Below the pieces are notes generated by a model that saw only the letters and a list, made by a program, of their open reading frames with translations, made no database searches and was not told the origin of the DNA. From the NCBI RefSeq assembly GCF_024055725.1, contig NZ_JAMXMX010000024.1, forward strand, positions 1 to 64,000: a DNA stretch of 64,000 nucleotides, read 5' to 3'. This document shows, piece after piece, positions 11,270-19,754 of this stretch. This stretch comes from Actinoallomurus spadix. GTDB taxonomy: Bacteria; Actinomycetota; Actinomycetes; Streptosporangiales; Streptosporangiaceae. The position numbers and the translations under genes are program-made. How positions within the stretch are numbered: position 1 is the stretch's first letter; the number at the start of each line of letters is the position of its first letter.

Positions 11270-11301
11270 ATGCAACCTGTTGCATAGGATTCAGGTTGCA
11301 T
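11270..11301. promoter_or_regulatory. XRE/DUF5753 operator cluster
   Basis: ATGCAAC-CT-GTTGCAT (11270-11285) is a perfect palindrome, and AGGTTGCAT at 11293-11301 is a further half-site, the exact complement of ATGCAACCT at 11270. The cluster ends 20 bases before the XRE start codon. Probable autoregulatory operator. Confidence 0.6.
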
Positions 11302-11321
11302 TTCGTTCCGGGAGGTCCCCC

Positions 11322-12197
11322 ATGCCCGCTCACCCGCACCCCACCGTCCGGTTGCGTCGCCTGGCCGGAAGCCTGAACCGCCTACGTACAGCCCGCGGCC
11401 TGAGTAGAGAAGACGTCGCAGAAGCCACCGGAATCAACAAGGCCACGCTCTACCGGATCGAGAAAGCCAAGGTCCGTCCACAGGCACGCACGCTCGCCGC
11501 CATGCTGACGCTGTACGAGGTCGAGCCGGACGAGCAGCGAGCCCTCACCAGACTCCTCAAGGACTCGTCGCAATCCGGATGGTGGCAGGCGTACACGGAC
11601 GAGCTGCCCGAGGAGTACAGCACCTACATCGAGTTCGAGAACGAAGCGCGGAGTGTCTGGAACTACGAGAGCCTCTACATCCCTGGCCTACTCCAGACCG
11701 AGGACTATGCCCGCGCCGTCATCCCCGGCGGCATGCCATCCCTGAGCCGACAAGAGGTCGACCGGCGAGTCCAGGTCAGGATGGAACGCCAAGCGATCCT
11801 GGACCGCGACCCAGCGCTCCGTCTCTGGGCGATCTGCGACGAGGCAGCGATCCACCGCGCGGTTGGTGGCCCAGCCGTGATGCGTGATCAACTCTTGCAC
11901 CTGGTCTCGGCCATGGAGCGGCCGAACGTCACGCTCCAAGTCGTGCCGTTCAACGTTGGCGCGCACCCCGGCATGCCGGGATCGTTCGTCGTACTTCAGT
12001 TTTCCGGCGATCCGGCTGTTGTCTACATCGACAGCATGGCCGGCAACCTTTTCCTCGAAGAGGAAGCAGACGTACATCGCTACACTGGACTCTACGAACA
12101 CCTCAGAGCTGTCGCAATCAGTCCAGACGCCACCAGAAAGCTGATAATCCGCGTGGCCGACGAGTATCAAGTAAGGGAAGAGACAGACGATGAATGA
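11322..12197 (+). CDS. XRE family regulator with DUF5753 domain
   Basis: A 291-residue regulator. The N-terminal HTH (RLRTARGLSREDVAEATGINKATLYRIEKAK) is followed by the DUF5753 domain: SVWNYESLYIPGLLQTEDYARAV, RMERQAIL, LWAICDEAAIHR and VVPFNVGAHPGMPGSFVVLQF. ATG 11322 is preceded by GGGAGGT 5 bases upstream. In actinomycetes these regulators form modules with a downstream DUF397 protein and a divergent ATP-binding protein, which is the arrangement here. The DUF397 partner is truncated. Confidence 0.9.
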   Translation: MPAHPHPTVRLRRLAGSLNRLRTARGLSREDVAEATGINKATLYRIEKAKVRPQARTLAAMLTLYEVEPDEQRALTRLLKDSSQSGWWQAYTDELPEEYSTYIEFENEARSVWNYESLYIPGLLQTEDYARAVIPGGMPSLSRQEVDRRVQVRMERQAILDRDPALRLWAICDEAAIHRAVGGPAVMRDQLLHLVSAMERPNVTLQVVPFNVGAHPGMPGSFVVLQFSGDPAVVYIDSMAGNLFLEEEADVHRYTGLYEHLRAVAISPDATRKLIIRVADEYQVREETDDE

Positions 12198-12276
12198 CTT
12201 GCCCCAGATCGATTGGCGCAAGAGCAGCCGATCTAGTTCGAACGGCCAGTGCGTTGAGGTAGGAGTAGCCGGATAG
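12190..12276 (+). pseudogene. Truncated DUF397 protein gene
   Basis: ATG 12190 overlaps the XRE stop by 8 bases and opens a 28-residue frame: an N-terminal IDWRKSSRSSSNGQCVEV, the diagnostic start of DUF397 proteins, and then GVAG and a stop. Intact family members are about 60-70 residues and continue with VAVRDSKDP-type sequence and a C-terminal FT..EW segment, none of which follows here. The break lies 38 bases from the first gene of the AT-richer island and is a candidate insertion or deletion junction. Confidence 0.7.
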
Positions 12277-12314: not shown

Positions 12315-13925
12315 TTACGGGCGGTGCAGCGCCCGGTGATACCTTATGTATTCCAACCCGACTCGGTGATTGCGCTTCACACGCAGATCACCAACGACTT
12401 CTCCATCCTCATCAATCACAGCATAGTTGTCATTGATGACGAACGAGCCCAACGAAATAAGCATGCGATGATTCGGGCACAAGCACAGGATGTTCTCTGC
12501 AATGTCCGGCCCGTGGTGGGGTGCGCTCAATCCGCGAAGATGTAGCGTTTGCGCGAACCGCATTCCGCCCGGAATCTCGAGAAAAATACCGCACACCTGG
12601 CATTCATAATCATGCACCCGCATGACCGATTCGGCTATACGCCGGTCCTGATATACATCATTTGAGACAAGCTCCCATTGATTGGGGGCCACGTTACGAG
12701 ATCGGCCGATGCCACCGTCACTCTGGAGCTGCTCGAGCCGAAACTGTAGAACGCGAAATCCATCCAATCCCTTAGTGGTCCAGTATTCTCCTACAGAGAA
12801 TAGGCCGTCATATCTGAAACCCACCGGAGGAGAGTGATTAGGATCGCCACCAGCCCCCCGAATTACCCTCACCGGCAGACCAGTCACGATATTTCTCAGC
12901 AGGGCCGCATTACCGGGATCCGTCGGGTCCTGATCCTTAACCTGTTGCTTTGTGTCTTGGTCGCGCCCGCCATGCCCCGTGTAGATGATCACACTCCCGA
13001 AATCTTGGTCGTCTTTATAGCCGCCAGATACAACGATTGATTCAGCACCTCCCCGGGCAGCAGAGCCGCAGATACCAGCCCGCAACTGCCGATGGATGTG
13101 GGCGTCATACAGCGACCGGCGATCAGGGAAGACGGCCCCCACCTCAATTCCCCTGTATTGATGACCGAAGGCAGCTATCGAGACTCTTGAATTCTTCTTG
13201 ATCCCTTGGTTCTTGACGAGAGGAAGCTGGCCTATCTGGTTGTAGCTACGCTTACGCGGCAAGGGCAAGCCCTTGCTCCGCATACTATCCCTCAGGTGGC
13301 TATAAATATCATCCAGGGTTATCTCTTCCGGACCGTTTGGCACTCCAGCGTCGATGAGCTTTATCAATTCACCCGTGAACGCCGTCAGGTCACCATCAAG
13401 AGGCGCAATTGCCTGCTTATCCGCGGACGTCGCAGCGAGGATATAGGCACCATCTATGTCAGCAAGGTCGACGACAGCGCCTACCGAGTCCGACATTGCG
13501 CCGATAGCGCGCCCGCTGTAACAGCAGTCCAGAATAACTATCGTGCGCTTGGCTCGACCCTCTAGGAGGAGGTCGCGAACGTGGTCGTAGGAGACTGCGG
13601 TATATGGACGCTGCGAATCAGAGTCACAGAGCGCGAGGTGGAGCTGACCTTTCTGATCAATGAAGCCGTGACCCGCAAAGTAAAAGATCAGTGTATCAGT
13701 CGCCTCATGTGCCGCCTCTCTGAGAGGATCCAGCATTTCAGGGTTTGTCAGAGGGTCACGAACAAGCTTACAGTTTTGCGGCGGTAGGCCCCAAATACCC
13801 TGACTACAGAAGACCCTTTGAAGCGAATCGATATTGTTCGATGTGCTAGGCAGGGACCCAAGAATGGAGTACTCGCTAACACCCACGAGGACGGCTCGCG
13901 ACTTGGCACCACTTGGCAGCGTCAC
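12315..13925 (-). CDS. Caspase-like protease fused to SRA (YDG) and HNH nuclease domains
   Basis: A 536-residue three-domain protein. Residues 8-240 are a C14 caspase-like domain: VLVGVSEY at the start, catalytic His86 in YFAGHG, and catalytic Cys135 in ILDCCYSG. Residues 251-400 are an SRA/YDG domain, the reader of modified cytosine in UHRF1 and McrA-type enzymes: AGICGSAARGGAESIVVSGG, YKDDQDFGSVIIYTGHGG, LPVRVIRG and YDG at 372-374. Residues 440-490 are an HNH nuclease: CQVC (442-445), His462, HHGPD, ENILCLCPNHR. GTG 13925 overlaps the EACC1 stop by 4 bases (coupled translation). Base composition is AT-richer than the surroundings. SRA-HNH and EACC1-linked caspases are each known; the fusion points to a modified-DNA-sensing defence effector. 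Function is inferred. Confidence 0.85.
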   Translation of the reverse strand: MTLPSGAKSRAVLVGVSEYSILGSLPSTSNNIDSLQRVFCSQGIWGLPPQNCKLVRDPLTNPEMLDPLREAAHEATDTLIFYFAGHGFIDQKGQLHLALCDSDSQRPYTAVSYDHVRDLLLEGRAKRTIVILDCCYSGRAIGAMSDSVGAVVDLADIDGAYILAATSADKQAIAPLDGDLTAFTGELIKLIDAGVPNGPEEITLDDIYSHLRDSMRSKGLPLPRKRSYNQIGQLPLVKNQGIKKNSRVSIAAFGHQYRGIEVGAVFPDRRSLYDAHIHRQLRAGICGSAARGGAESIVVSGGYKDDQDFGSVIIYTGHGGRDQDTKQQVKDQDPTDPGNAALLRNIVTGLPVRVIRGAGGDPNHSPPVGFRYDGLFSVGEYWTTKGLDGFRVLQFRLEQLQSDGGIGRSRNVAPNQWELVSNDVYQDRRIAESVMRVHDYECQVCGIFLEIPGGMRFAQTLHLRGLSAPHHGPDIAENILCLCPNHRMLISLGSFVINDNYAVIDEDGEVVGDLRVKRNHRVGLEYIRYHRALHRP

Positions 13926-14266
13926 GACTCGACCTTTCCGATAGCCGAGTATATCTTGGCAGCCATCTCAGGATCGGCGCCGTCTATGGTTACCTTAATC
14001 CCGTCACGCTCAATCGTGACGGTGCGATGATTACGGCGCGTGGAATACCAGCTGGCGAACGCAAGAGCGAAGTTCCCCACCTGGAACCCCTCATCGAGCA
14101 CCATTTTGATGGCCTCGAAGGATGCACCCATCTTCCCAGGCTCAGGCAAGTCTGAGGATAGGGAGATAAGCGCATCGTGCCTGATATCCGGATCGTCACG
14201 CAGCCACTGCAACAGCGAGCGGAGCTCGTCTGCAGCGCCGTCACCACTTACGGAAATGTTGATCAT
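13922..14266 (-). CDS. Effector-associated constant component EACC1
   Basis: A 114-residue protein with the EACC1 pattern: N-terminal strand ISVSGDGAADELRSLLQWLRDDPDIR, then DLPEPGKMGASFEAIKMVLD, a hydrophobic GNFALAFASWYSTRR and a C-terminal strand pair VTIERDGIKVTIDG. EACC1 was defined by comparative genomics as the constant partner of caspase- or trypsin-like effectors in actinobacterial conflict systems; its biochemical role is unproven. ATG 14266 follows GGGGGAAG by 8 bases; upstream in-frame ATGs at 14284 and 14302 are less well placed. It is first in an operon with the caspase-SRA-HNH gene, which it overlaps by 4 bases. Confidence 0.85.
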   Translation of the reverse strand: MINISVSGDGAADELRSLLQWLRDDPDIRHDALISLSSDLPEPGKMGASFEAIKMVLDEGFQVGNFALAFASWYSTRRNHRTVTIERDGIKVTIDGADPEMAAKIYSAIGKVES

Positions 14267-14395
14267 GGTCGCAGCTTCCCCCATGTCCCTCGCTGTGCAC
14301 ATGCGGAGAACAATTTAGGGCAAATCCACCCCGAGTGCATGCAAATCGCCGATCTTGGTCTTCGCCCTGGTAACGACGCCGCGTACAGTGCCGCC
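14267..14395. promoter_or_regulatory. Divergent promoter region of the defence island
   Basis: The 129 bases between the divergent EACC1 and SauUSI-like genes. On the plus strand TACAGT (14384-14389) ends 6 bases before ATG 14396, a leaderless -10 arrangement. On the minus strand an AT-rich TAAATT lies upstream of EACC1. I see no strong palindrome. Confidence 0.5.
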
Positions 14396-17300
14396 ATGCC
14401 AGAAGCTCAGCCCGGTGTCTACGAGCACCTCATCACCACGGCTGTCCGTAGACAGCTTCAGTGCATCAGCGATGATCTTGTGCACCGTAAGCGGCTAGGT
14501 GATGAGGATGCGGGAGCGATCCTCGGCCGACACCTATCTCAGCTTGTAAGCCGGGCTCTGAAGCTCGCCCGCGAGGCAGACAACGGACGAGACCCGGTGG
14601 CAGCACAGGTGGCGATGGCCAATCGGATCGCGGAGGCCATCGCCTCTGTCATGGCTGATGCGGTGACCAGTGACGACTTCGTCGCTGATGGACATGAGGT
14701 GCTGCTCGCGGTGGCTGCTAGCCGGCGACCTGACGGGACCGTTGCGTTCCCCGACCGACCCGACATCCCTCTCTCGACCAGCGCTCTCCTCGTCAACGGG
14801 CACGAACAACCCCAAGTCGGCCGGCAGGTAGTCAAGGAACTCGACTCTGCTGACCAGGTTGATCTGCTCTGTGCGTTCATCAAGTGGCATGGCCTGCGGC
14901 TGATCGATGACAGCCTTCAGCGTTTCATCGAACGAGGCGGCAGGATGCGGGTGATCACGACGACCTACATCGGCGCCACCGAGCGTAGGGCGCTCGATCG
15001 GCTCGTCGGCATGGGCGCCGAGGTCAAGATCAACTATGAAACGCGCACCACTCGGCTCCACGCTAAAGCTTGGCTGTTTCGCCGTGCTTCGCAGCTGGAC
15101 ACCGCATACGTCGGGTCGTCGAATCTGTCCAAGACAGCTTTGACAGACGGTAAGGAGTGGAACGTCCGGCTCGCCCGCGCGGAGCAACCGCACCTGCTCG
15201 ACACCTTCCAGGCGACCTTCGATGAATATTGGGCAGATCCCTCCTTCGAGACGTACGTCCCGAGCCGGGATACCCAGCGACTCGACGAAGCTCTCAAGAA
15301 GGAAGCTGGGGGACCCACTGACCTCCCACTTCAGATCACCAACATTGCGGTTACGCCCTATCCCTACCAGCGCGAGATCTTGGACGAGGTCCAGGCAGCA
15401 CGCAAGCTACACGGCCACTGGCGGAACCTCGCCGTCATGGCGACCGGCACCGGCAAGACTGTCGTTGCCGCGCTCGACTACAAGCGGCTGCGAGCTCAAG
15501 GCGCTGCTGAGTCGCTCCTGTTCGTCGCGCATCGCAAGGAGATCTTGCAGCAGAGTCTCTTGACCTTCCGGCAGACGCTGCAGGACGGATCGTTCGGGGA
15601 ACTGCTCGTCGATGGCCAGCGACCGCAGGAGTGGCGACACGTCTTCGCCTCGATCCAGTCGCTATCCCGCCTCGACATCGAACCGGACCACTTCGACATG
15701 GTGATCGTCGACGAGTTCCACCACGCGGAGGCGGCAACTTATACCCGGCTGCTTGATCACCTGAAGCCGAAGGTGCTGCTCGGCCTCACCGCTACCCCAG
15801 AACGCACAGACGGTGCCGACATCCTTCACTGGTTCGACGGCGGTAAGCCGACCGTGGAACTTCGGCTGTGGGAAGCGCTGGAACGAGACCTCCTTGTCCC
15901 ATTCCACTACTTCGGGATCCACGATGCCACTGACTTGTCTCAGATCACATGGCGACGTGGCACCGGCTACGACATCGCAGAGCTGACGAACCTCTACACC
16001 GGCCACGACGCGCGTGTCTCCATGGTGATCAAGGCGCTGGCGGACAAGCTCGCCAACGTCCGCGACATGCGTGCCGTCGGCTTCTGCGTCAGCATCGCGC
16101 ATGCGGAGTTCATGGCGACGCGCTTCAACCAGGCAGGTATCCCGTCAGTCGCGGTCACCTCCGCGACTGATCGGAGCGCGCGGGAGCAAACGCTCATCGA
16201 CCTGCGGAACCGGGAGATCAACGTTGTCTTCACGGTCGACCTGTTCAACGAGGGCGTTGACGTGCCCCAAATCGACACAGTGCTCTTCCTCCGCCCCACC
16301 GAGAGCGCCACCGTCTTCCTCCAACAGCTCGGCCGAGGCCTGCGCTTCGCCGATGACAAGCCATGTCTCACGGTCTTGGATTTCGTTGGGCGTCAGAACG
16401 TCAACTTCCGCTTCGACTTGCGGTACCGAGCGCTTACGGGTGACAGTCCCCGCCAGCTCGAACGCGACATCCATGACGGGTTCCCCACCCTGCCAGCCGG
16501 CTGCCATATCGACCTCGATCGCGAGGTCAGCAAGCTGGTGCTGGAGAACCTCAAGCAGGCACTCAACGCTAACAAGAAGGCGATCCTCGCTGAGCTGCGC
16601 AGCTCGGCGGAGCGGAGCCTGGCCGGCTTCCTCGACGAAAGCGGGCTCGAACTTGAGGATCTTTACTCCGGCTCGCGAGGAGGCTGGGTCGGCCTTCGCC
16701 GCGAAGCTGGTCTTGAGCAAAGGATTCCGACAGATCCTAAGGATGACCGTAGTCTCGCCTCCGCGATCGGTCGGATGCTGCACATCGACGATCCTGAGCG
16801 GATCGGCTTCGTCCGCGATGTGTTCTCACAAAACGAACCGCCTCGGCCGGCAACCTTCGATCATCGCCGACGGCGCCTTCTAGCGATGCTTCATGCATCT
16901 GTGGACAGCAGCCTGCCGCTGAGCGCCCTCGCCCGGAATCTTGCGCGTTTCTGGCGGAACCCGGCTCGCAGGGATGAAGTCCTAGAGATCACTGAGGTGC
17001 TACGAGCGCGTCTTCACCGCATCACCCCTCCGTTGGCCGAGGCAAGCCACATCCCTCTTCGCCTCCACGCCACCTACACCAAGGACGAGATTCTGGCTGC
17101 GTTCGGCATGGAGAAGCCACGATCGTGGGTGGCAGGCGTGCGCTGGATGCCTGAAGAGCAAGCCGACATCTTCTTTGTAACGATCAACAAGACCGAAGAT
17201 CACTTCTCACCGCAGACGATGTACAGCGACCGAGCTATCAGTCCTACAGAGTTCCAGTGGGAGTCCCAGCATCTCACCCGCGAGAGCTCCGAGACCGGTC

Positions 17301-17497
17301 AGCGGTACATCCACCACGCGGACCGAGGGTCGAGCGTCCATCTCTTCATCCGCGAGTACAAAGGCGACCCATTTACCTACGCAGGCCCGATGACGTACGA
17401 GAGCCATGAGGGGGAACGCCCGATGCGCGTCCGCTGGCAACTAGCCTATGAACTCCCTGCGGACGTCTTTCACTACGCAAAGGTCACGGCAGGGTGA
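14396..17497 (+). CDS. SauUSI-like restriction enzyme (PLD nuclease, SF2 helicase, DUF3427)
   Basis: A 1033-residue protein. The N-terminal third ends in a phospholipase-D-type nuclease domain with HAK (His222, Lys224) and GSSNLS. An SF2 helicase follows: Walker A ATGTGKT (Lys354), DEFH (439-442), LTATPERTDG, and motif VI QQLGRGLR near 643-650. The last 180 residues resemble DUF3427 (TKDEILAAFG, GVRWMPEEQADIFFVTINK, DRAISPTEFQWESQ, HLFIRE). This order is that of SauUSI, the Staphylococcus type IV enzyme that cuts DNA with modified cytosine; DUF3427 is its specificity domain. The start is leaderless. It is divergent from the EACC1-caspase operon, which fits a shared defence island. Modification specificity is not readable. 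Confidence 0.85.
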   Translation: MPEAQPGVYEHLITTAVRRQLQCISDDLVHRKRLGDEDAGAILGRHLSQLVSRALKLAREADNGRDPVAAQVAMANRIAEAIASVMADAVTSDDFVADGHEVLLAVAASRRPDGTVAFPDRPDIPLSTSALLVNGHEQPQVGRQVVKELDSADQVDLLCAFIKWHGLRLIDDSLQRFIERGGRMRVITTTYIGATERRALDRLVGMGAEVKINYETRTTRLHAKAWLFRRASQLDTAYVGSSNLSKTALTDGKEWNVRLARAEQPHLLDTFQATFDEYWADPSFETYVPSRDTQRLDEALKKEAGGPTDLPLQITNIAVTPYPYQREILDEVQAARKLHGHWRNLAVMATGTGKTVVAALDYKRLRAQGAAESLLFVAHRKEILQQSLLTFRQTLQDGSFGELLVDGQRPQEWRHVFASIQSLSRLDIEPDHFDMVIVDEFHHAEAATYTRLLDHLKPKVLLGLTATPERTDGADILHWFDGGKPTVELRLWEALERDLLVPFHYFGIHDATDLSQITWRRGTGYDIAELTNLYTGHDARVSMVIKALADKLANVRDMRAVGFCVSIAHAEFMATRFNQAGIPSVAVTSATDRSAREQTLIDLRNREINVVFTVDLFNEGVDVPQIDTVLFLRPTESATVFLQQLGRGLRFADDKPCLTVLDFVGRQNVNFRFDLRYRALTGDSPRQLERDIHDGFPTLPAGCHIDLDREVSKLVLENLKQALNANKKAILAELRSSAERSLAGFLDESGLELEDLYSGSRGGWVGLRREAGLEQRIPTDPKDDRSLASAIGRMLHIDDPERIGFVRDVFSQNEPPRPATFDHRRRRLLAMLHASVDSSLPLSALARNLARFWRNPARRDEVLEITEVLRARLHRITPPLAEASHIPLRLHATYTKDEILAAFGMEKPRSWVAGVRWMPEEQADIFFVTINKTEDHFSPQTMYSDRAISPTEFQWESQHLTRESSETGQRYIHHADRGSSVHLFIREYKGDPFTYAGPMTYESHEGERPMRVRWQLAYELPADVFHYAKVTAG

Positions 17498-17597: not shown

Positions 17598-18407
17598 CTA
17601 ACACGTGATGACCCGCCGATGTGCCGCCCACGCTCGGGCGGCATTAGCCATGTTCCTGATCCACTCCGCCGAATTGCCGTTGGCGATCTCTTCCCACATC
17701 CTCTCGCACGCTTGTGCGAAGACGACTAGTCCCTCCGCTGGCGCGGCCTGCCAGGCGGGCAGGCTTTCCACTACCTGTTCTGCTGAGGTCGCCCTGTGCC
17801 CGTTCCCGATCAGCCTCAGGATGAGGCATGCCGGATCGATCCAACCGGCTCCCCTCGTCGGCCAGGCCCAGTCGATAAGCAACGCCTGGTCATCGGCGAT
17901 CAGCACGTTGAGCGGGTTGTAGTCGGTGTGAAGGAGCCGGTCACCCTTGAGCCATTCCAGATCCGCAGGCGCGTCCACGTACGTCCGCCAGCGATGTTCC
18001 GCCACTTTCACCGGCAGGTCTGGGCACTGGATCGTGCCGAGCGCCGTCATAGCTTCAACGATCTTCGGCAGGTCGGCGGACCCGGGCCGGTAGTCGGCAT
18101 GCCGGCCGTCGATCATCTCGAAGCCGAGCACGTCCCATTCGCCCTGCACCCGCCACAGCAACCGGGACGACAGATGTGCGACGTACGGGTTGATCACCGC
18201 CTCCATGTCCTGGTTCCAGCGCCGCGGGTAGTCGCGATGCAGTCCCTTGACGAAGACAGGCCCGGCCTCGGTAGCCAGTACGGCCGCCACCGCGGAGTTC
18301 AGCCCTTCGGACACGGTCTTCGCCGACCACACCGCGCCGGTGCGCTCCTCGACTGCTGCCCTGGTCCCAGCAGGAAGGTCTTCCCAGTGGATGCGTTCGA
18401 CCGCCAT
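17598..18407 (-). CDS. APH/choline-kinase-like phosphotransferase
   Basis: A 269-residue protein kinase-fold small-molecule kinase. An ATP-binding lobe (GPVFVKGLHRDYPRRWNQDMEAVI) is followed by the catalytic loop RLLHTDYNPLNVLI and metal-binding LLIDWAWPTRGAGWIDPACL, the APH Brenner-type motifs (H-D-x5-N and D-W). ATG 18407 has AAGGGGG 4-5 bases upstream. It is last in the operon with the radical SAM enzyme and the small peptide. Whether it phosphorylates the peptide, a metabolite or an antibiotic cannot be told; similar kinases occur in some RiPP loci and in resistance. Confidence 0.75.
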   Translation of the reverse strand: MAVERIHWEDLPAGTRAAVEERTGAVWSAKTVSEGLNSAVAAVLATEAGPVFVKGLHRDYPRRWNQDMEAVINPYVAHLSSRLLWRVQGEWDVLGFEMIDGRHADYRPGSADLPKIVEAMTALGTIQCPDLPVKVAEHRWRTYVDAPADLEWLKGDRLLHTDYNPLNVLIADDQALLIDWAWPTRGAGWIDPACLILRLIGNGHRATSAEQVVESLPAWQAAPAEGLVVFAQACERMWEEIANGNSAEWIRNMANAARAWAAHRRVITC

Positions 18408-18480
18408 GTGTCCCCCTTGCTGGCCGTGGCGAAGGGCCGCCCCGCGACATCGTAGGGCGGCCCTATCCCTCGGGCGACGG

Positions 18481-18612
18481 TCAGTACGGCTGGTCGTCGC
18501 CGGCACTACACGAGCACATGGCCGTCTTGACCAGCGTGTCGAGGTCGTCGACGAACTCGGGCTCGGACAGTGCCGTAGTCGGCTTGGGTCCAATGACAAG
18601 ATCGATGGTCAT
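18481..18612 (-). CDS. Candidate RiPP precursor peptide
   Basis: A 43-residue peptide whose ATG overlaps the stop of the radical SAM gene by 4 bases (ATGA). It begins MTIDLVIGPKPTTAL, has an acidic leader-like centre (SEPEFVDDLDTLV) and ends in a compact MCSCSAGDDQPY with Cys33 and Cys35. Size, acidic leader and Cys-rich end fit a ribosomally made peptide modified by the coupled radical SAM/SPASM enzyme. I do not recognise the peptide family. The alternative is a small accessory protein, but its fixed position between maturase and kinase favours the precursor role. Confidence 0.7.
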   Translation of the reverse strand: MTIDLVIGPKPTTALSEPEFVDDLDTLVKTAMCSCSAGDDQPY

Positions 18613-19754
18613 CCAGCTACCCCCTCTCTCGATTCCCGGTGCTGGCAGTAGGTCGCCAGCGGAGCTTTGGCCTTGCGGTAGAGCTGCACGAGCGGCATGC
18701 AGGTGCCGCACGTGCTCTGAAGCGAGCAGCCGGTGCATCCGCCTTGCCGGAGGAGGAGCGAGTCTGCGATCTCTCCGAGCCGACGAAGCCCTTCTACGCC
18801 TTCCGCGACGAGCGGGATATTGGGGTTGCGTCCGATCTTGCAGATGCTGGCCGTGCCGTGTGGATCGACGTGGAAGAAGCTGTGGCCGGCGTTGCAGCCG
18901 GTGAACGGCTTGCGCTCCCGGAGATGCTCGACGGACTGCGCGGGCAGCGTCTCTGCACCGCCGTAGATCGTCGGCGCCATGTTCAAGTAGAGGTGGTGCG
19001 GCACTCCGAGCGCGTCGCCCATGGCCTGCATCTGCTCGACCTCATGGGCATTGGTCTTCGTAATGATCAGGCTGAGCTTGAGTGGTAGGCCGGCCTCGTG
19101 CGCTGCGGTCAGCCCGCGGCTGAACGCCTTGAACGCACCCCGCCGCCGGGTCAAGCCGTCGTAGCTCGTCTCCGTCGCGCCATAAACGCTGATCGTGATT
19201 TCGTGCGGTCGCTGCGTCGTCAGCAGCTCGAGGATATTCGGGTTGGCCAGCCTCGAGCCGTTGGTGAGGATCGTCAGCATCATGCCCAGCCGATAGGCCG
19301 TGCGGTAGACGTCCGGGAACAGCTTGTCGATCATCGGCTCTCCGCCCGTGAGCTGAAGCCACAGCACACCGGCATCCCGGAGGATGTACAGCAGCTTCTC
19401 CCGTTCTGGCCAGGCCAGGCCCTCGAAACGCTTGAGCCCGAGATAGCAGTGCTCGCAGTCGTAGTTACAGCCGAGGTTGAGTTCGTAGGTGGCCCGCACA
19501 TACCCGTACGGCGATTCCGCCCGTACGACGGCCGTCTCGTTGAGCGGTCGGTCACTGATGTCGACCTGCCAGCCCCCACGTACGGCATCGACCAGCCACA
19601 TCGGCGCGTGGCCGCCGTCAGTGGCCGTCTGGCAGAGCTCCCGGTACTTGTCGCGGGGGAGCCGCAGGCCGCTGTGGCTGCCCGGCCGCAGCACGAGGTA
19701 GTCACCGGAGAATGGAGAAACGATCAGTTCGTGCACATTCCAGGCGTTATTCAT
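18609..19754 (-). CDS. Radical SAM/SPASM peptide maturase-like protein
   Basis: A 381-residue enzyme. Residues 1-80 form a small N-terminal domain (SPFSGDYLVLRPGSHSGLRL) that may serve as peptide recognition. The radical SAM domain has CNYDCEHC (Cys96, Cys100, Cys103) binding the SAM [4Fe-4S] cluster, TGGEP at 136-140 and TNGSRL at 164-169. The C-terminal region carries seven more Cys (287, 305, 340, 343, 349, 352, 370) in SPASM-like spacing, so auxiliary Fe-S clusters are expected. ATG 19754 has GGGAAGG 6 bases upstream. The small peptide gene follows with a 4-base overlap; the HAD gene lies 107 bases upstream. Confidence 0.88.
   Translation of the reverse strand: MNNAWNVHELIVSPFSGDYLVLRPGSHSGLRLPRDKYRELCQTATDGGHAPMWLVDAVRGGWQVDISDRPLNETAVVRAESPYGYVRATYELNLGCNYDCEHCYLGLKRFEGLAWPEREKLLYILRDAGVLWLQLTGGEPMIDKLFPDVYRTAYRLGMMLTILTNGSRLANPNILELLTTQRPHEITISVYGATETSYDGLTRRRGAFKAFSRGLTAAHEAGLPLKLSLIITKTNAHEVEQMQAMGDALGVPHHLYLNMAPTIYGGAETLPAQSVEHLRERKPFTGCNAGHSFFHVDPHGTASICKIGRNPNIPLVAEGVEGLRRLGEIADSLLLRQGGCTGCSLQSTCGTCMPLVQLYRKAKAPLATYCQHRESREGVAG

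Follow-up and report, generated by a model that had tools for sequence, protein, structure and literature searches.

A caspase joined to a predicted nuclease-dead SRA-HNH module and paired with EACC1: a candidate sensor of modified cytosine in Actinoallomurus spadix and related genomes

Introduction

What does a protein that joins a caspase to the parts of a modification-dependent nuclease do when it meets modified DNA: does it cut the DNA, cut proteins, or both? The question is raised by a two-gene unit in a 64,000-nucleotide stretch of Actinoallomurus spadix (contig NZ_JAMXMX010000024.1, positions 1 to 64,000; hereafter the window), in which an EACC1 gene precedes a gene for a protein made of a caspase, an SRA domain and an HNH domain (hereafter the fusion). 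A preliminary description of this locus had proposed that reader, nuclease and protease lie in one chain, so that recognition of modified DNA would lead to proteolysis as well as to DNA cutting. Judging from its sequence, the chain is most likely a reader and a protease without a working nuclease. The reading that we favour, with some reserve, is that of a defence pair whose sensor of modified cytosine is a former SRA-HNH enzyme and whose output is the caspase, with a SauUSI-like DNA-cutting enzyme alongside.

The EACC1-caspase two-gene arrangement corresponds to System 4 of Kaur et al. 2020, who name SAD, a modified-DNA-binding domain, among up to 50 C-terminal domains and read these as effectors (PMC7159879). 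The earlier statement that there was no described example does not stand against that list (PMC7159879), and we rejected the idea of an undescribed architecture on the same ground. The term SRA does not occur in the main text of that paper, where HNH appears a single time, for NucA (PMC7159879). We found no study of a caspase-SRA protein, and no experimental study of EACC1-caspase systems, in the open-access literature searched. To this we add the predicted dead HNH across the sampled family, the avoidance of cytosine-5 methyltransferases (C5-MTases), the link with SauUSI-like genes and the resulting reading as a sensor.

Results

The genes and domains on which the argument rests are listed below by their positions in the window.

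12315..13925, minus strand: caspase-SRA-pseudoHNH gene, 536 amino acids, GTG start; 22 relatives at 43-59% identity
13922..14266, minus strand: EACC1 gene, first of the pair, 114 amino acids; Pfam PF19953, E 2.9e-26
13236..13901, minus strand: caspase (C14) domain, residues 9-230; PF00656, E 1.1e-13; dyad His86 and Cys135
12723..13157, minus strand: SRA domain, residues 257-401; PF02182, E 4.5e-40; pocket Y303, D306 and Y315
12432..12602, minus strand: HNH domain, Pfam stretch 442-498; zinc ligands present, metal ligands replaced by Arg487 and Ser491

The preliminary description had the EACC1 gene overlapping the 536-residue gene by 4 bp. The overlap is borne out by the coordinates, both genes lying on the minus strand, and the identity of EACC1 by the PF19953 match (92 bits, cut-off 23.6). 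The three-domain chain that it had described was likewise recovered by domain searches: residues 9-217 match the NCBIfam model NF047832, "caspase, EACC1-associated type" (E 3e-70; 236 bits, cut-off 140), the C14 and SAD_SRA profiles both match the protein, and residues 252-532 have TagI (6ghs) as their best solved relative (E 1.2e-65). In an AlphaFold2 model of the fusion (predicted local distance difference test, pLDDT, 77.7; predicted template modelling score, pTM, 0.47), the SRA-HNH part resembles TagI (Foldseek, 6ghs, E 2.0e-29) and UHRF1, and the caspase part the MALT1 paracaspase and a metacaspase; the model confirms folds only.

Relatives of the fusion are encoded in at least 22 of the 344 other genomes of the window genome's order. 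This count and those for the class given below are lower bounds, only a few candidates per genome having been scored; in the first scan the search was by six exact peptides, and the best 80 loci were retained. The match begins at or before query residue 9 in 21 of these relatives and at residue 22 in the remaining one (genome G266). An EACC1 gene lies directly upstream in all 23 fusion loci, the window included, in agreement with the order first described. The Pfam SRA and C14 models match every fusion and HNH_2 matches 20 of the 23 at E <= 1. A chance or split gene was set aside in view of the 22 relatives with the same chain and of the constant upstream EACC1.

The properties of TagI provide the standard by which the HNH domain can be judged. 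In that enzyme His229 (the general base), Asn245 and His254 (a metal ligand) are essential and Asp258, also a metal ligand, is needed for activity; its zinc site is Cys3-Asp (relatives have CxxH and CxxC variants), and its base pocket consists of Y55, D58 and Y67 (PMC6212794). The HNH fold and the zinc ligands C442, C445, C483 and H486 are kept in all 23 fusions, together with the equivalent of Asn245, and the equivalent of His229 is kept in 18. The His254 equivalent, however, is replaced in every fusion (by Arg in 18, by Ala in two, and by Ser, Gln or Met in the others), and the Asp258 equivalent is Asp in only four and Glu in two. The window protein carries Arg487 and Ser491 at these positions, and its HNH_2 match is below threshold (16.9 bits, cut-off 21). 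In contrast, all four residues are present in 15 of 15 standalone SRA-HNH relatives. This set was made up of the best matches that are not fused, 14 of them belonging to the order and the fifteenth to another part of the class. Of the HNH site that had been claimed, the fold and the zinc ligands are thus present and the catalytic site is not, and the proposal that the chain cuts DNA conflicts with the loss of the metal-binding His in 23/23 fusions against its retention in 15/15 standalone proteins. We predict that the HNH domain of the fusion is nuclease-dead. A working HNH was rejected on this metal-ligand loss, and so was the filing of the fusion as a working SRA-HNH endonuclease, which calls for the catalytic His-Asn-His and the metal Asp.

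The reader and protease parts have been kept. Residues Y303, D306 and Y315, equivalent to Y55, D58 and Y67 of TagI, are conserved in 23/23 fusions. The YDG motif (Y372-D373-G374) and both members of the predicted caspase dyad, His86 and Cys135, lie where the preliminary description had placed them and are invariant in the 23 aligned sequences. Mean pairwise identity among the fusions is highest in the SRA domain (66.5%, against 50.9% in the caspase and 51.5% in the HNH). That the base pocket is perfect where catalysis has been lost speaks for a reader and not for a cutter. Beyond the caspase, Asn239 is invariant and is preceded by Lys or Arg in 18 of the 23 fusions; with the basic residue present in only these 18, an autoprocessing motif downstream of the caspase could not be established.

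A protein that reacts to 5-methylcytosine (5mC) is expected to occur in hosts that do not make this base. C5-MTases (PF00145, E <= 1e-10) are present in 212 of the 345 genomes of the order, but their distribution is uneven: 3 of 23 fusion genomes carry one, against 209 of 322 others (p 1e-6), and the figures at E <= 1e-20 are 2/23 and 190/322 (p 2e-6). The contrast persists within seven genera (Cochran-Mantel-Haenszel p 4e-6; within-genus permutation P = 5e-5). As positive controls, the genomes with standalone SRA-HNH genes (the 14 among the matches listed) had a C5-MTase in one case against 208 of 308, and those with a SauUSI-like DUF3427 gene showed a weaker effect (25/70 against 183/238). 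Among fusion genomes without DUF3427, one in ten had a C5-MTase, to be compared with the same 183/238 (p 2.6e-5). The negative controls gave no such depletion: genomes with other caspase matches do not avoid C5-MTases (129/177, against 79/131 without these caspases), and the adenine methyltransferase PF02384 occurs in 21 of the 23 fusion genomes and in 54 of 57 chosen others. Of the three fusion genomes with a C5-MTase, G266 has six matches, and the start of its fusion and the remainder lie in different reading frames (L102/L161), through either a real interruption of the gene or a fault in the assembly; in G180 the C5-MTase match is weak (4.6e-12).

The gene that diverges from the pair brings in a second protein related to modified cytosine, and the two lines of the feature list that concern it are as follows.

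14396..17497, plus strand: SauUSI-like PLD nuclease / SF2 ATPase / DUF3427 gene, divergent neighbour, 1033 amino acids
14267..14395, no strand: intergenic gap of 129 bp between the divergent units, likely to hold promoters to judge from the gene coordinates

This neighbour matches the PADLOC model mREase_IV (Type IV restriction; E 7.4e-278, scored on the open reading frame 14177-17497) and SauUSI 7clg (E 1.4e-82), and carries PF13091, PF04851 and PF11907 (PLD, SF2 helicase and DUF3427/target recognition domain) in one chain; we predict that it is a modified-cytosine-dependent restriction enzyme. SauUSI itself recognises 5mC or 5-hydroxymethylcytosine (5hmC) through an SRA-like domain and cuts DNA that contains either (PMC7913695). 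A SauUSI-like gene adjoins the fusion in 12 of 23 loci (11 of the 22 relatives plus the window), whereas the 73 loci of related caspases used for comparison have none nearby (p 2e-9); in 55 of these 73 an upstream EACC1 was found with the model of this branch. Flanks of about 9 kb were examined at fusion loci and of up to 6 kb at controls, some loci in both sets being shorter (4 kb in G160). With a stricter control of 41 loci having both a found EACC1 and long flanks, the count was again zero (p 4e-7). The neighbours occur in divergent, tandem and convergent order, each within about 1.2 kb of the fusion gene. The fusion pair thus often sits beside a nuclease reading the same mark, and DNA cutting is to be sought in the putative enzyme encoded at 14396-17497, outside the stretch covered by the preliminary description, with more likelihood than in the fusion itself. 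SauUSI-like genes are also close to 3 of the 14 standalone SRA-HNH genes (G140, G145 and G155), and DUF3427 is not enriched in the standalone SRA-HNH genomes (4/14 against 70/308, p 0.53).

With regard to the origin of the fusion, a tree of the SRA-HNH part placed the fusions on one branch (support 100/99), apart from TagI and the 15 standalone relatives. In every one of the 23 fusion genomes PF02182 matches a single protein, namely the fusion. Two changes have to be assumed on a quick tree of the caspase part, L008, L009 and L010, which lack the SRA, standing beside the window protein with modest support; a single origin, perhaps followed by a module swap, would be the simplest reading. These three caspases near that of the window have another C-terminal part without a Pfam match, L008 being the one scanned singly. 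At least seven named full-length matches were found, all in Nonomuraea, Planomonospora, Actinomadura or Spongiactinospora. No full-length fusion was seen outside the window's family among the matches listed at E <= 1e-50 in a class sample of 394 genomes, and on these counts a spread beyond the order was given less weight.

EACC1 has been proposed as a membrane sensor with a predicted transmembrane helix (PMC7159879). The published EACC1 differs in this respect from the present branch, most of whose 23 members lack a convincing one: the window protein is low in hydropathy (best 19-residue mean 0.92), and 9 of the 23 loci reach 1.6. Its AlphaFold2 model is a small, compact alpha/beta fold (pLDDT 81) with longest helices of 13-14 residues, for which a fold search gave no match below E 0.001, the best being a weak one of PII/HPPK type. 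Hydropathy and model together do not favour a membrane role for this branch, though they are no proof against one.

The C-terminal parts of other EACC1-associated-type caspases put the fusion into context. They are variable: 53 such parts of related caspases match 97 Pfam families at E <= 0.01, with overlapping WD40 models making up many of the matches listed. Two proteins that score well against NF047832 (214 bits for L045 and 241 for L023, cut-off 140) carry clearly dead enzymes. In Actinosynnema sp. ALI-1.44 (L045:5980-8466) the caspase is followed by a trehalose synthase in which Cys replaces the nucleophile Asp and Arg replaces a His of the active site; this genome also encodes an 80% identical paralogue, in an unbroken frame of 627 codons, with both residues intact. 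No EACC1 gene adjoining this caspase was found at the locus. In Micromonospora sp. MW-13 (L023:153-1358) the caspase precedes a JAB domain in which three conserved residues of the catalytic HxH-S-D motif of the JAB protease are lost; they are present in a paralogue, 57% identical, encoded elsewhere in that genome.

Smaller observations were made on other members of the group. In Streptomyces, the C-termini of L015 and L017 contain a PcrA/UvrD Tudor domain and that of L013 has a weak DnaX-C match; L013, L015 and L017 suggest pieces of replication or repair proteins in the position of a sensor or decoy. Similar DnaX-like repeats were seen by eye in L012 and L015. The histidine-kinase boxes of L018 look intact by eye, so that inactivity is not, as far as seen, a general rule for the C-terminal enzymes. 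By eye the kinase-like part of L016 is degenerate, and Pfam at 1e-4 detected no kinase in it; the module of L050 is Eco29kI-like, and a search for solved structures related to it gave none. From this handful of loci there is a hint that dead or borrowed C-terminal modules fit sensors and decoys better than effectors.

Discussion

At the level of sequence, the favoured reading is supported by the domains, the loss of the HNH metal site, the intact pocket and dyad, the linkage to SauUSI-like genes and the avoidance of C5-MTases in the genomes examined. These results support the link between modified DNA and a protease made in the preliminary description; that DNA activates the protease, what EACC1 does, which proteins are cut and how the cell fares are matters that we infer from them. 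In the model that we propose, the SRA domain would flip a modified cytosine, either 5mC or 5hmC, out of foreign DNA and bind it, while the dead HNH, retaining its zinc fold, would probably serve DNA binding and dimerisation. Binding to, or clustering on, modified DNA might then turn on the N-terminal caspase, with EACC1 gating or assisting it, and the caspase would cut proteins of the cell or of the invader, probably halting growth (abortive infection). The SauUSI-like enzyme would be the DNA-cutting layer against the identical mark. Whether the arrangement amounts to a protein-cutting kind of restriction, in which modified cytosine directly triggers a protease within a two-layer unit completed by a SauUSI-type cutter, we regard as evenly balanced.

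Three other explanations deserve to be weighed against a sensor of modified cytosine. The dead SRA-HNH part could be a decoy that mimics a restriction enzyme, so that binding by a phage anti-restriction protein fires the caspase. Modules in such systems are typically inactive cell-derived forms that may be decoys (PMC7159879), and the two dead enzymes with intact paralogues in the same genome (L045 and L023) agree with this; a decoy, however, has no need of the base pocket kept in 23/23 fusions, no second SRA match, the enzyme to be mimicked, occurs in any of the 23 fusion genomes, and the avoidance of C5-MTases is left without a reason. We consider a decoy unlikely. Close to the preliminary description is the view that EACC1 and the caspase are the sensor and switch and that SRA-HNH is a working effector freed by autoproteolysis, as has been proposed for the C-terminal domains generally (PMC7159879). 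The C5-MTase avoidance would likewise follow from a nuclease, and the invariant Asn239 with its preceding Lys or Arg (18/23) leaves room for a cleavage site. A nuclease is nevertheless hard to reconcile with a metal His lost in 23/23 and a metal Asp lost in 19/23 (Glu in two of them) when both are kept in 15/15 standalone proteins and both are required in TagI (PMC6212794); the general base, moreover, has gone too in 5 of the 23 fusions. A freed nuclease appears to us quite unlikely.

Finally, the SRA-pseudoHNH part might only position the caspase on invading DNA, or block the use of that DNA, with EACC1 sensing the trigger, for example at the membrane. The conserved pocket and zinc site fit DNA binding without cutting, and EACC1 has been put forward as a membrane sensor (PMC7159879), but in this branch EACC1 shows weak hydrophobicity (0.92 in the window) and its model is compact and alpha/beta. 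To such a tether or block we give little credence.

Several points weigh against a caspase set off by modified cytosine. Avoidance of C5-MTases is incompatibility with 5mC and not proof of a harmful caspase output, and G148 is a genuine exception, its C5-MTase being clear and its fusion intact. SauUSI-like genes avoid C5-MTases themselves and are present more often in fusion genomes (13/23) than in the others (74/322); only ten fusion genomes lack such a gene. All fusion genomes belong to one family and 16 of the 23 to two genera, so that they are non-independent samples; the C5-MTase statistics treat kin genomes as samples, and the genus strata were partly assigned, for unlisted genomes, from genome numbering order. 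As to structure, the SRA stretches 281-294 and 299-301 beside the pocket fall below pLDDT 50 in the AlphaFold2 model, and with a pTM of 0.47 that model does not fix the domain arrangement.

Comparison with known systems shows where the fusion would stand. It shares with System 4 of Kaur et al. the 5' EACC1 gene and the 3' gene with an N-terminal caspase and a variable C-terminal domain (PMC7159879), and differs in that its C-terminus is a whole SRA-HNH enzyme with the nuclease site lost, best read as a sensor. With TagI and ScoA3IV it has in common the SRA-HNH chain, the base pocket and the zinc site, but the fusions lack the metal His, carry a caspase in front, have an EACC1 partner and form a separate clade. 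SauUSI, whose homologue adjoins the fusion in the 12 loci mentioned, acts on the 5mC/5hmC mark (PMC7913695). Unlike the fusion, it is an ATP-dependent nuclease and a separate protein without a protease. Type III-E CRISPR-Cas achieves RNA-guided recognition of RNA with parts unrelated to those of the fusion. There too, recognition of nucleic acid is tied to a caspase-like (CHAT) protease (PMC10952713), whereas the fusion would read a modified DNA base without a guide.

If the favoured reading is correct, the published view of the C-terminal domains of EACC1-caspase systems would be turned from effectors to sensors, and a large bacterial caspase family would gain a concrete trigger (5mC/5hmC) and a concrete output (the caspase). 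The fusion would also be, to our knowledge, the first protease switched on by a modified DNA base, as we found no earlier one. Should dead enzymes prove common among these C-termini, they would be sensors or decoys and the caspase the weapon. A comparison is offered by the inflammasomes of animals and by plant receptors that carry integrated decoys. The approach itself, in which the trigger of a defence protein is deduced from the methyltransferases that its hosts avoid, may be of use elsewhere.

Other features of the locus

A scan for sigma-70-like promoter sites, the 129-bp gap included, and for terminators was no better than chance. The possibility of a plasmid-borne element was rejected: 82 plasmid records match parts of the query and none spans 80% of it. 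Convergent with the fusion gene is a helix-turn-helix/DUF5753 regulator at 11280-12197 (plus strand), followed by a short open reading frame (region 11280-12276, plus strand) that by eye resembles the small DUF397 partner usual for such a regulator. Beyond the SauUSI-like gene, positions 17598-19754 (minus strand) look like a small modified-peptide cassette of the ribosomally synthesised and post-translationally modified peptide (RiPP) type. This putative cassette comprises a weak APH match, below cut-off, at 17598-18599 (minus strand), a radical SAM/SPASM-like gene at 18609-19754 (minus strand) and, within 18481-18738 (minus strand), a short open reading frame with a Cys-containing tail ending MCSCSAGDDQPY.

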